A stretch of 64,000 bases of DNA from Gemmatimonadaceae bacterium (lineage in GTDB: Bacteria > Gemmatimonadota > Gemmatimonadetes > Gemmatimonadales > Gemmatimonadaceae). The stretch is from the NCBI GenBank assembly GCA_025934775.1, contig JAICWO010000015.1, positions 1 to 64,000 of the forward strand, read 5' to 3'. The notes under the pieces were generated by a model. That model was not told where the DNA came from and did not search any database. It was given only the letters and a program-made list of their open reading frames with translations. Of the stretch, positions 51,777 through 57,166 are shown in pieces (position 1 is the stretch's first letter; every line of letters begins with the position of its first letter). The position numbers were made by a program, and so were the translations under genes.

Positions 51777-52856
51777 TCAATCGCCGAAGCTCACGCCGAG
51801 CTCCCGTGCGGTGCGCACGATGTCATGGTTGGGATCGACGCGCTTGGGCTGCTTGAGCGCTTCCTCGATGGGAATCGTCACGATGTGCGGCGATTGCAGC
51901 GCCACCATGTGCCCCCACTTCTGCTCGGCGACCGCGCGCACCGCCGCGCCGCCGAAGCGCGTTGCCAGGAGCCGATCGTAGCCCGTGGGCATGCCGCCGC
52001 GCTGGAGATGGCCGAGCACGAGCGAGCGCGTCTCCTTGCCCGTGACACGCTGGATCTCGCGCGCGATCGGCTCGCAGAGACCGCCCACCCGCCGCGCCTG
52101 CCCGGGCAGCGATTCGCCGATCAACGTGACCGTGCCGCCCTTCGGGAACGCGCCCTCCGCCACGACGACGATCGAGAAGTGCCGGCCCGCACGGTCGCGC
52201 GCCGCGATCTTCTCGCAGACTTTAGCGATGTCGTATGGTATTTCTGGAATGAGGATCACGTCCGCGGTGCCGGCGAGCCCCGAGTAGAGCGCGATGAAGC
52301 CGGCGTCGCGCCCCATCACCTCCATCACGATCACGCGGTCGTGGCTCTCGGCGGTCGTGTGCAGCTTGTCGATCGCCTCGATCGCCGTGTTCACCGCGGT
52401 GTCGAAGCCGAAGCTCGTGATCGTGCCGCTCACGTCGTTGTCGATCGTCTTCGGCACGCCGACGACGTTCATGCCCTTGTCGCAGAGCAGCTTGGCGATC
52501 GTGAGCGACCCGTCGCCGCCGATCGAGATGACCGCGTCGATCCCGAGCTGGCGCGCGTTGGCGAGCAGCTCGTCGGAACGGTCCTCCTCGACGATCGAGC
52601 CGTCGGGCTGCAGCCGTGGATAGTGAAAGGGGTTGCCGCGGTTCGTCGTCCGGAGGATCGTCCCGCCCAGGTGCGCGATCCCGCGCACGGCATCCTTGGT
52701 GAGCGGAATGACTTCGTCTTCCCCCATGAGTCCCGCGAAGCCGCGCTTGATCCCGAGCACGTCCCAACCGCGGTTGATCGCCGTCAGCACCGCGGCGCGG
52801 ATGACGGCGTTGAGTCCGGGCGCGTCGCCGCCGCCGGTGGAGATCGCGATCCTCAT
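51777..52856 (-). CDS. pfkA: 6-phosphofructokinase
   Basis: 359 residues. It phosphorylates fructose 6-phosphate in glycolysis. Motifs: GGGDAPGLNAVIR (8-20), GGDGS (113-117), PKTIDND (135-141), then EVMGRDAGFIALYS. Gly in GGDGS together with Lys in PKTIDND is the combination found in ATP-using group III enzymes of actinobacteria; PPi-dependent enzymes have Asp at the first site. Assignment to ATP is therefore likely but not certain. The SelW-like gene ends 49 bases upstream on the same strand. Confidence 0.93.
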   Translation of the reverse strand: MRIAISTGGGDAPGLNAVIRAAVLTAINRGWDVLGIKRGFAGLMGEDEVIPLTKDAVRGIAHLGGTILRTTNRGNPFHYPRLQPDGSIVEEDRSDELLANARQLGIDAVISIGGDGSLTIAKLLCDKGMNVVGVPKTIDNDVSGTITSFGFDTAVNTAIEAIDKLHTTAESHDRVIVMEVMGRDAGFIALYSGLAGTADVILIPEIPYDIAKVCEKIAARDRAGRHFSIVVVAEGAFPKGGTVTLIGESLPGQARRVGGLCEPIAREIQRVTGKETRSLVLGHLQRGGMPTGYDRLLATRFGGAAVRAVAEQKWGHMVALQSPHIVTIPIEEALKQPKRVDPNHDIVRTARELGVSFGD

Positions 52857-52905: not shown

Positions 52906-53136
52906 TCAGGTCGGCCGCCGCTCGAGCGCCGCGACGACTTCGCCCGGGTGTGGAAACCGATCGAGCTTCGACTTCTCAAAGATTGGCGCGCCGTCGGCCG
53001 AGATCTCGAACCGGCCGCCTCTCGATTTGACGAGATTCACCGTCGCGTCGGGAAAACGTTCACGAATCTCAGCCGCCAACCTGACGGCTCGAGGTTCGTA
53101 GCTTCACATCGTGCAGTATTCGATCGTGATCGTCAT
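52906..53136 (-). CDS. SelW-like (Rdx family) selenoprotein with in-frame UGA
   Basis: 76 residues: M-T-I-T-I-E-Y-C-T-M-U-S-Y-E-P-R-A, then the Rdx-type LAAEIRERFPDATVNLVKSR and GGRFEISADGAPIFEKSKLD, ending RRPT. Residue 11 is a TGA codon (53104-53106) exactly where the Rdx redox motif C-x-x-C/U has its second residue. Cys-containing relatives read IEYCTxC. Rdx proteins are thioredoxin-like redox proteins. A hairpin with bacterial SECIS geometry begins three bases beyond the UGA. ATG 53136 is the first start after an in-frame TGA at 53158. No strong ribosome site. The lipoprotein gene ends 39 bases upstream. A nonsense mutation or sequencing error is the main alternative; Sec machinery genes are not in the window. 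Confidence 0.75.
53063..53098 (-). promoter_or_regulatory. Candidate bacterial SECIS element
   Basis: On the minus strand, starting five bases after UGA: CGAA pairs with UUCG, then C/A mismatch, CUC pairs with GAG, one bulged G, AGCC pairs with GGCU, closed by an 11-base loop GUCAGGUUGGC. The loop G-G-U is 23-25 bases after the UGA, inside the 16-37 window known for bSECIS, and resembles the fdhF AGGU loop. Folding by eye, no energies calculated. Confidence 0.6.
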
Positions 53137-53908: not shown

Positions 53909-54124
53909 TGGGCGCGATCCAGCGGCGTTCTTGGGCGGCGCGGAGACGAGAGTCGTAAATTTCTTGCGCAGCCGAATTGAGCAGCTCAATGGTGGATTCA
54001 TGGCTGATCGCATCGGCAACTCATTCGTATTTCGATACTTCTGATCGCTGATCCCGGATCGGTGCCGGTTTCGGCGATAGCCGATGTGACCCTCGCCGCA
54101 GGGGGGTGGGTTATAACAAAGGAC
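53909..54124. other. Intergenic region upstream of ECF sigma
   Basis: 216 bases without a gene. A perfect ATTGAGC-A-GCTCAAT palindrome is at 53976-53990 and could be an operator. A weak AAAGGA ribosome site precedes ATG 54125. Confidence 0.45.
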
Positions 54125-54664
54125 ATGAGCGACGATGCCGCCGACGTTCAACGCGTCTTAGCGGGGGACGTTGACGCATACGCCGCACTGGTCGACCGCT
54201 ACTACGATCGATGCGCACGGTTCGCAGTCCGGATGTTGGGGAACCGGGACGACGCGGAAGATGCGTTGCAGGCGACCTTCCTCCGGGCGTACCGGGCGCT
54301 CGATCGGTATCAGGAGCGTGATCGATTCAGCGCGTGGTTGTATCGGATTCTGGTGAATCAATGCCGGAGCATCGCCGCGCGTCGTGCCCATCGCGAGCGG
54401 GTGTTCGTTCGCGAAGAAGCGCTGCTGTTGAACGCGCCGGATCGCTCGGTTGGTTGGTCGGGTGAGGATGAGGAATTCGTTCAGCGCGTCCTGAGTGAGC
54501 TGGACCCGTTGTTGCGGGAAGCGTTTCTCCTGAAGTACATCGAAGAGATGAGTTACGAGGAGATGTCGGCCTTGACTGGTGTCGGTGTCTCCGCGTTGAA
54601 GATGCGTGTGAAGCGCGCATGCGATCGGCTGCGCGAGCGGTGGGAGCGGATCAAGCATGATTGA
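54125..54664 (+). CDS. ECF RNA polymerase sigma factor
   Basis: 179 residues. Region 2 (about 10-75: RVLAGDVDAYAALVDRYYDR, DDAEDALQATFLRAYRAL) and region 4 (about 120-172: REAFLLKYIEEMSYEEMSAL, VSALKMRVKRACDRLRERWE). It overlaps the following anti-sigma-like gene by eight bases. It drives its own operon and perhaps other envelope genes, by analogy with related systems. Confidence 0.92.
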   Translation: MSDDAADVQRVLAGDVDAYAALVDRYYDRCARFAVRMLGNRDDAEDALQATFLRAYRALDRYQERDRFSAWLYRILVNQCRSIAARRAHRERVFVREEALLLNAPDRSVGWSGEDEEFVQRVLSELDPLLREAFLLKYIEEMSYEEMSALTGVGVSALKMRVKRACDRLRERWERIKHD

Positions 54665-55238
54665 CTCGGAGCAGCATACCTACATCGACATGATCGCCCG
54701 TGAGGCGCGCCGTCCAGTCGCGACGGACCGCGCCGCGCGCGAGCGCATCATGACGCTGGTACGCTCCGAGCCGGCGCCGCATCGCCGCTCCTCCGTCTGG
54801 GCCGCGATCTTCCAGCCGCGCTTCTCTCTCTCCCCCGCCGTGAGCACGCTGCTCGCCGCGGGCCTCGTCGGCATCGGCGTGATCGCCGGTGCATTCGCCA
54901 TGAACCGGGACGGCCATCAGGTCGGGCAACCGCGTTTTGCTGCCGCTCAGCGGCTCCCGGTTTCTGACACGGTGGTCAAGTTCGTCTTCGTCGCGCCGCA
55001 AGCGGAGCACGTATCGCTCGTCGGCGATTTCAACGGCTGGGACGCATCCAAGACCCCCATGGTCCGCTCCGAGCACAGCGGCCTCTGGACCGTGACGCTC
55101 CCCCTCCCGGAGGGGCGGCACCTGTACGCGTTCGTGGTCGACGGGAATTCCTGGTCCGCTGATCCGAACGCGCCGTTCGCGCCCGATGATGGGTTCGGCC
55201 ACGCGAATTCCGTCAGGATCGTCAATCGAGGATCATAG
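54657..55238 (+). CDS. Anti-sigma-like protein with CBM48-type domain
   Basis: 193 residues: a cytoplasmic N-terminus (1-60), one membrane segment at about 59-80 (VSTLLAAGLVGIGVIAGAFA), and a periplasmic domain at about 105-190 with VKFVFVAPQAEHVSLVGDFN, GWDASKTPMVRSEHSGLWTV and RHLYAFVVDGNSW. This is the AMPK/isoamylase-N-type glycogen-binding sandwich. Overlap with the sigma gene and topology suggest an anti-sigma factor whose sensor is a sugar-binding domain; inferred. Confidence 0.65.
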   Translation: MIDSEQHTYIDMIAREARRPVATDRAARERIMTLVRSEPAPHRRSSVWAAIFQPRFSLSPAVSTLLAAGLVGIGVIAGAFAMNRDGHQVGQPRFAAAQRLPVSDTVVKFVFVAPQAEHVSLVGDFNGWDASKTPMVRSEHSGLWTVTLPLPEGRHLYAFVVDGNSWSADPNAPFAPDDGFGHANSVRIVNRGS

Positions 55239-55897: not shown

Positions 55898-57166
55898 ATG
55901 AACGAGCAGAAGGTCGCAATCCTCGCCGTTTTGACTGCAGCGCTGCTGGTTCCCGCGCACCGGGAGCTTGCAGCGCAGATTGCTTCCAAGCTCGATGCGG
56001 GGCAGTTCACGGTGAACGATGGCACCGTCCCTTCCAGCGCGCTGCGCCTCGCCCCCACCTTCGAGTACCAGACGCCGTACGCCACGCTCACGGCGCACGG
56101 ATCCGCCTTCGTCACCGAACAGTCGCTTCAGATCGCGGACGGCGTCCTCTCCGGCACGTTCACCTCGCCCACCGTCTACGGCGTACGCGCCGAGATGATC
56201 GGCAACGCCAGCCGAGCGGTCGATGAGCGCTCGCTCGGCACCGATCAAGTCGACGTGCAGACGCGCGTCCACGTGCTCTTCCATCAGCGCGGTGGGCTCT
56301 GGCTCGGCGGCGGCGTCGCGCGTCCTTGGCGCGTGGCCGTAATCTCCTCGGCCGACGTCGCCGACGCGGGCGCATGGACCAAGGTTGGCGGAGCGACGTT
56401 CACCGCGACGTTCACGAACTTCTCATTCACGAAGGTTGCATCGGTCCACGACACCGCGAGCAGCGCGCTCTCGTGCGCCGTCGCGACGAGCGGCACGGTG
56501 CCCGGCGCCGCCAGCGCGATGCGCTTCGTCGCCGACGACGCCGCGGCGTCCAGCGCATGCGAGCGGCAGTCGCGCTTCAGCGATCTCGAAGGCTCGGTAC
56601 ATTGGGAGCTCGGCGCGCTCGAGCTCAACGCGCAGAGCGGCTACCGCTTCGGCGACTCCTACGATGTCACGCCCGATTCGCGGCGCTGGAGCTCCGCGAC
56701 GGCGACGGTCTGGCTCAGCGACCGCGTTGCCGTGATCGGCGGCGGCGGCCGGCAGCCGGCGCTTCCGCTGCGCGGTCTTCCCGCGCGCACGTTCTTCATG
56801 GGCGGCCTCGAGCTCGCGTACTGGCCGATCTCGCACAACACGATTCCTGTCTCGCTGCCGCACGCCACGCTGCTCAAGAGCTTCGATCTGCGCCCGGCGG
56901 AGCAAGGACTCGAGAAAATTGTGATCCACGTCGGCGGCGTGGAGACCGTAGAGGTGATGGGCGACTTCAGCGATTGGACGCCGCTCACTGTGACCCGCCA
57001 CGGCCGCGATCTCTGGGAGCTCGCGCTGCCGCTCTCGCCCGGCGTCCATCAGATCAACGTCCGCGTCGACGACGGCCCATGGATGGCGCCCCCGGGGCTG
57101 CCCACCATGCACGACAGCTACGATCGCGACGTCGGCCTGCTGGTGGTGAAAGACAACAAGTCCTGA
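55898..57166 (+). CDS. Outer-membrane barrel with C-terminal CBM48-type domain
   Basis: 422 residues with a signal peptide (VAILAVLTAALLVPAHRELA). About 40-310 is beta-strand rich (TAHGSAFVTEQSLQIADGVL, GGLWLGGGVARPWRVAVISS), ending in YWPISHNTIP. The last 90 residues (IVIHVGGVETVEVMGDFSDW, TPLTVTRHGRDLWELALPLS) form a glycogen-binding sandwich like that of the anti-sigma-like protein upstream. Probably surface-exposed or periplasmic and carbohydrate-related. Fourth gene of the ECF cluster. Confidence 0.65.
   Translation: MNEQKVAILAVLTAALLVPAHRELAAQIASKLDAGQFTVNDGTVPSSALRLAPTFEYQTPYATLTAHGSAFVTEQSLQIADGVLSGTFTSPTVYGVRAEMIGNASRAVDERSLGTDQVDVQTRVHVLFHQRGGLWLGGGVARPWRVAVISSADVADAGAWTKVGGATFTATFTNFSFTKVASVHDTASSALSCAVATSGTVPGAASAMRFVADDAAASSACERQSRFSDLEGSVHWELGALELNAQSGYRFGDSYDVTPDSRRWSSATATVWLSDRVAVIGGGGRQPALPLRGLPARTFFMGGLELAYWPISHNTIPVSLPHATLLKSFDLRPAEQGLEKIVIHVGGVETVEVMGDFSDWTPLTVTRHGRDLWELALPLSPGVHQINVRVDDGPWMAPPGLPTMHDSYDRDVGLLVVKDNKS

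Follow-up and report, generated by a model that had tools for sequence, protein, structure and literature searches.

A predicted SelW-like selenoprotein gene in Gemmatimonadaceae and its occurrence across Gemmatimonadota

The selW-like locus and its product

The window analysed here is a stretch of 64,000 nucleotides, positions 1 to 64,000 of contig JAICWO010000015.1, from a Gemmatimonadaceae bacterium (GenBank assembly GCA_025934775.1). On its minus strand, positions 52906-53136 hold a selW-like gene of the Rdx family (PF10262) that runs from an ATG start to a TGA stop and encodes 76 amino acids, with one predicted selenocysteine (Sec), U11. The frame is interrupted by a single TGA, at 53104-53106 on the minus strand, and translation of 52906-53136 with this codon read as U gives the protein MTITIEYCTMUSYEPRAVRLAAEIRERFPDATVNLVKSRGGRFEISADGAPIFEKSKLDRFPHPGEVVAALERRPT. 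A full-length Rdx/SelW protein read through one TGA had been proposed in a sequence-only reading of this DNA, and profile searches bear this out: the product scores 73.5 bits against Pfam Rdx PF10262 (cut-off 22.6), 65.8 bits against NCBIfam CXXU_selWTH TIGR02174 (cut-off 34.2) and 95.5 against SelTWH_Campy NF041051 (cut-off 88). One minor correction applies to where that reading placed the TGA: within C-T-M-U the codon specifies the second of the two redox residues, and U occupies the fourth position of CxxU. The partner residue C8, encoded at 53113-53115 (minus strand), forms an invariant column in an alignment of 39 sequences, where C8, U/C11, A17 and F43 are the only strictly invariant positions. 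The ATG start is backed by a conserved M1 among relatives, and no obvious Shine-Dalgarno sequence was seen at this start. A table 11 ORF listing contains no ORF of at least 60 amino acids in this frame at the locus. The gene would therefore probably escape ordinary ORF calling, in agreement with the earlier claim that standard calling splits or drops it.

Two minus-strand genes flank selW. An upstream ORF at 53176-53757 matches no Pfam family and is kept in close relatives; it possibly encodes a small lipoprotein whose translation begins at an internal start codon. Downstream by 49 nt lies pfkA (51777-52856), encoding a phosphofructokinase (PF00365, 345 bits in Pfam). This enzyme carries GGDGS together with PKTIDND, a combination that we take to mix features separating ATP-dependent from PPi-dependent phosphofructokinases. 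Elsewhere in the window, at 54062-55238, an ECF sigma factor gene overlaps one whose product carries a CBM48/AMPK glycogen-binding domain, and a second such domain stands at the end of the protein encoded at 55898-57166.

An AlphaFold2 model of the selW-like product (mean pLDDT 94.6) is predicted to adopt a SelW/thioredoxin-like fold, in which strand 2-8 is followed by a loop and a helix (14-27) and the C8-T-M-U11 redox motif sits after the first strand. The top Foldseek matches to this model are SelW-like proteins (E 5e-7, TM 0.88). The best of them are 2FA8, 2OBK, 2OJL, 2OKA, 2P0G and 3DEX, followed by MIEN1 and mouse SelW (2NPB), and sequence searches return the same list of proteins. A phage or plasmid origin of the gene was considered and rejected: there was no phage match, and the plasmid matches were rhizobial and Thermomicrobium Rdx proteins at 38-42% identity.

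A SECIS-like hairpin and the Sec machinery of the host

The sequence-only reading also described a hairpin with a GGU loop past the UGA, at a spacing suited to a bacterial SECIS. We located such a hairpin on the minus strand at 53071-53089, corresponding to transcript positions 18-36 when the U of the UGA is numbered 1, with an 8-bp apical stem and the GGU loop at 53079-53081, 22 nt past the UGA. In the predicted fold, outer pairing extends the structure to about 53061-53100. The 57 nt comprising the UGA and downstream sequence fold at -23.5 kcal/mol (z = -3.8, equalled by 1 of 200 shuffled sequences), and the apical hairpin alone at -12.1 kcal/mol. Loop, spacing and stem length all agree with published rules for bacterial SECIS elements (PMC13188914).

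The same geometry fits 91 of 92 distinct UGA-type sequences, a set made up of 90 from Gemmatimonadota and two from other phyla. The sequences in this set are related, so that counts over them are not independent events. As the loose geometric rule is satisfied by 64.6% of synonymous versions too, geometry is weak on its own, and stability and conservation carry the weight. In each of the 92 sequences, the apical hairpin exceeds half of its synonymous versions in stability (median p 0.012; p<0.05 in 63/92), with a median of -14.0 kcal/mol observed against -7.9 for the synonymous versions. The whole 48-nt region, by contrast, is not clearly better folded than its synonymous controls (p<0.05 in 10/92). 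Across the stem columns, 607 of 644 cells are paired, compared with at most 393 of 644 when slid, and at several positions the pairs have changed on both sides (GC/AT/CG; CG/GC/TA). The hairpin is also retained in the copies from Desulfobulbus and Bacillota, where its sequence is quite different.

The host genome is a 4.88-Mb draft of 47 contigs, 99% complete. The closest named relative of the selW-like gene comes from a Gemmatimonadaceae MAG (77% identity), in keeping with the family of the host. The earlier reading had suggested looking there for selA, selB, selD and tRNA-Sec, and all four were found: selA at 560 bits, a full-length selB at 356 bits, selD at 380 bits and, adjoining selD, a tRNA-Sec scored at 74.5 bits by Rfam and called tRNA-SeC with anticodon tca by ARAGORN. 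A six-frame profile search of this genome returned one Rdx match, with one TGA inside. Two further selenoprotein genes are present. selD itself has an in-frame TGA (FARCAGUAAKLG), presumably at the usual SelD active-site position as judged by E. coli SelD, and an FdhA-type molybdopterin oxidoreductase gene on another contig has one (VDSCNRTUHAPS) at what we take to be the usual FdhA position by E. coli FdhF.

We are highly confident that the gene at 52906-53136 is functional and encodes a SelW-like selenoprotein of the Rdx family, with Sec incorporation itself inferred from sequence and genomic setting. A ribosome would reach the UGA at codon 11, where the downstream mRNA hairpin, acting as a SECIS, would recruit SelB with selenocysteyl-tRNA-Sec, which SelA would have made from selenophosphate supplied by SelD. 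Selenocysteine would then go in at the UGA in place of termination. The product is expected to be a protein of ~8.5 kDa with a thioredoxin-like fold and a C-x-x-U pair in the loop past the first strand. This pair would most likely cycle between selenol/thiol and selenenylsulfide, with the protein serving as a thiol-dependent reductase or redox partner.

Conservation of the UGA, linkage to pfkA and competing explanations

Profile searches of 395 Gemmatimonadota genomes identified an Rdx gene in 193 and selA in 282, and every one of the 193 Rdx carriers was examined for stops in the gene. A copy with exactly one in-frame TGA is present in 189 of the 193. Among these 189 genomes, 174 have selA, 13 more have selB and the last 2 have tRNA-Sec, and none lacks all three together. 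The four remaining genomes (G195, G052, G129 and G320) have a stop-free copy only; in G052, G129 and G320 the Rdx codon is TGC, and selA, selB and tRNA-Sec were not found at the thresholds used. The TGA falls at the identical codon in 92/92 distinct TGA-type sequences. TGC stands at the Sec column in the aligned Cys homologues (L027, L028-L032 and L076), and this sole alternative occurs either where the genome has no Sec machinery or where the gene is a second paralogue of the Cys type. Cys-type Rdx copies of a rhizobial kind were seen in five genomes (L028-L032), and G363, G212 and G071 have such a copy alongside the UGA-type one. Two individual copies depart from the usual form: one (L084, in G013) keeps the UGA, the hairpin and the pfkA overlap with ~25 middle residues missing, through either deletion or an assembly fault, and another (L079, in G025) has a frame break past about residue 50.

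The Cys copy of G129 (L076; LCVGCNYQPRAAAL...) directly precedes the same pfkA (74% identity), which makes it a positional orthologue of the UGA-type gene. G129 is a single contig rated 100% complete, and TGA is found in the Rdx genes of its relatives within the genus. This arrangement points to an in-place replacement of Sec by Cys, with parsimony favoring that direction, and would provide a clean case of such a change in a genome without Sec machinery. SelW-like proteins do not figure among the Sec-to-Cys events that Zhang et al. (2006) listed for their set (PMC1794560), and the replacement in G129 has apparently not been described before.

Of the 54 UGA-type loci examined for their neighborhood, 34 have pfkA directly downstream. 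In many order-level relatives the two genes overlap by 1-10 nt, in some cases as GTGA. Such an arrangement suggests that selW and pfkA are co-transcribed and perhaps coupled in translation, and any role in regulation is speculative. One idea is that the UGA doubles as a regulatory switch, with low selenium causing early termination and so uncoupling translation of the downstream, often overlapping pfkA, which would tie glycolysis to selenium supply. The frequency of the linkage and the short overlaps are what this idea has to offer, and we consider it improbable, because small overlaps are frequent in compact operons, the window and its nearest relatives have a gap of 7-49 nt and no overlap, most class-level relatives examined show no linkage within 1.5 kb, and the Cys orthologue of G129 retains its neighboring pfkA as well. 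The broader proposal that in Gemmatimonadales phosphofructokinase synthesis depends on Sec decoding in selW, such that selenium supply or SelW redox state would control entry into glycolysis, is a similarly long shot.

A pseudogene, or a Cys codon (TGC or TGT) mutated or misread to TGA, fares worse still than the switch. TGA is one nucleotide from TGC and the source assembly is a draft of 47 contigs, which would allow for such an error. However, the single in-frame TGA recurs in 188 other Gemmatimonadota genomes, at the same codon across genera and families. The sequence-only reading had named stops at unrelated positions in homologues as the mark of a pseudogene; none was seen, TGC (Cys) being the only substitute at this codon. 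Conservation extends to both sides of the UGA, and downstream of it the ratio of nonsynonymous to synonymous change is 0.29-0.57 in comparisons with five close relatives, which indicates purifying selection. Together with the conserved SECIS-like hairpin, these observations effectively exclude a pseudogene or sequencing error. General readthrough at UGA codons, or their reassignment to Trp, Gly or Arg, would also leave the frame open, whatever residue is inserted, but is scarcely credible given that the gene itself terminates at TGA, that the other internal TGAs found sit at known Sec positions in SelD and FdhA, that the residue aligned with the UGA in homologues is Cys and that the TGA form co-occurs with Sec machinery.

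Relation to known SelW-like proteins

A Sec-decoded SelW-like protein accords well with earlier work on bacteria. By 2006 the recognized families of bacterial selenoproteins included the SelW-like one (PMC1794560). In the GOS marine survey no family was more abundant, with 427 sequences and a CxxU motif (PMC2398784), and the table of a 2026 review gives the family as PF10262, CxxU and 'predicted with high confidence' (PMC13188914). Epsilonproteobacterial SelW proteins have been predicted, their genes having been entirely overlooked by annotation (PMC4607533). Neither a Gemmatimonadota host nor linkage to pfkA is mentioned in PMC1794560, PMC2398784 or PMC13188914, and both SelW and Gemmatimonadetes are absent from the main text of Peng et al. 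(2016). Our literature search, covering mainly the main texts of openly available papers, found no paper describing SelW-like selenoproteins in Gemmatimonadota and none joining Gemmatimonas with selenoprotein. The phylum-wide occurrence in Gemmatimonadota and the often overlapping linkage of selW to pfkA thus both appear to be previously undescribed.

The present analysis extends the SelW-like selenoproteins by a set on the scale of a phylum (189 of the 395 genomes sampled), which ordinary gene calling would probably leave out, and the distribution of selA indicates that the Sec trait is common in Gemmatimonadota. The conserved linkage to pfkA gives a first clue to what bacterial SelW may do in the cell.

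Comparison with characterized proteins helps to place the Gemmatimonadaceae gene. Cys-type bacterial Rdx proteins (2FA8, 2OBK, 2OJL, 2OKA, 2P0G, 3DEX) share its fold (TM ~0.9) and sequence family; they have no Sec, and the Cys homologues aligned here have CxxC where the Gemmatimonadaceae protein has CxxU. Mammalian selenoprotein W (2NPB) has both the CxxU motif and the fold family in common with it (Foldseek TMq 0.67), although the two are distant in sequence, at 19% identity. The eukaryotic SECIS, moreover, is located in the 3' UTR, unlike that of the bacterial selW-like gene. A further counterpart is SelW of Campylobacter jejuni (the CJnc60 ORF), which is likewise small, UGA-containing and missed by annotation; the NCBIfam model SelTWH_Campy matches the Gemmatimonadaceae protein above its cut-off. 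Its full-length UGA readthrough product was confirmed experimentally in 2025 by Ribo-seq and mass spectrometry (PMC11955535), while the full-length Gemmatimonadaceae product is a prediction. The bacterial SelW-like selenoproteins of Geobacter, Desulfotalea, Symbiobacterium and marine metagenomes (PMC1794560, PMC2398784, PMC13188914) belong to the same family and have the CxxU motif, with the UGA at the same residue, a SECIS directly downstream and Sec machinery in the genome, as in Gemmatimonadota. The Gemmatimonadaceae SelW is a member of this well-known bacterial family of CxxU SelW-like selenoproteins.
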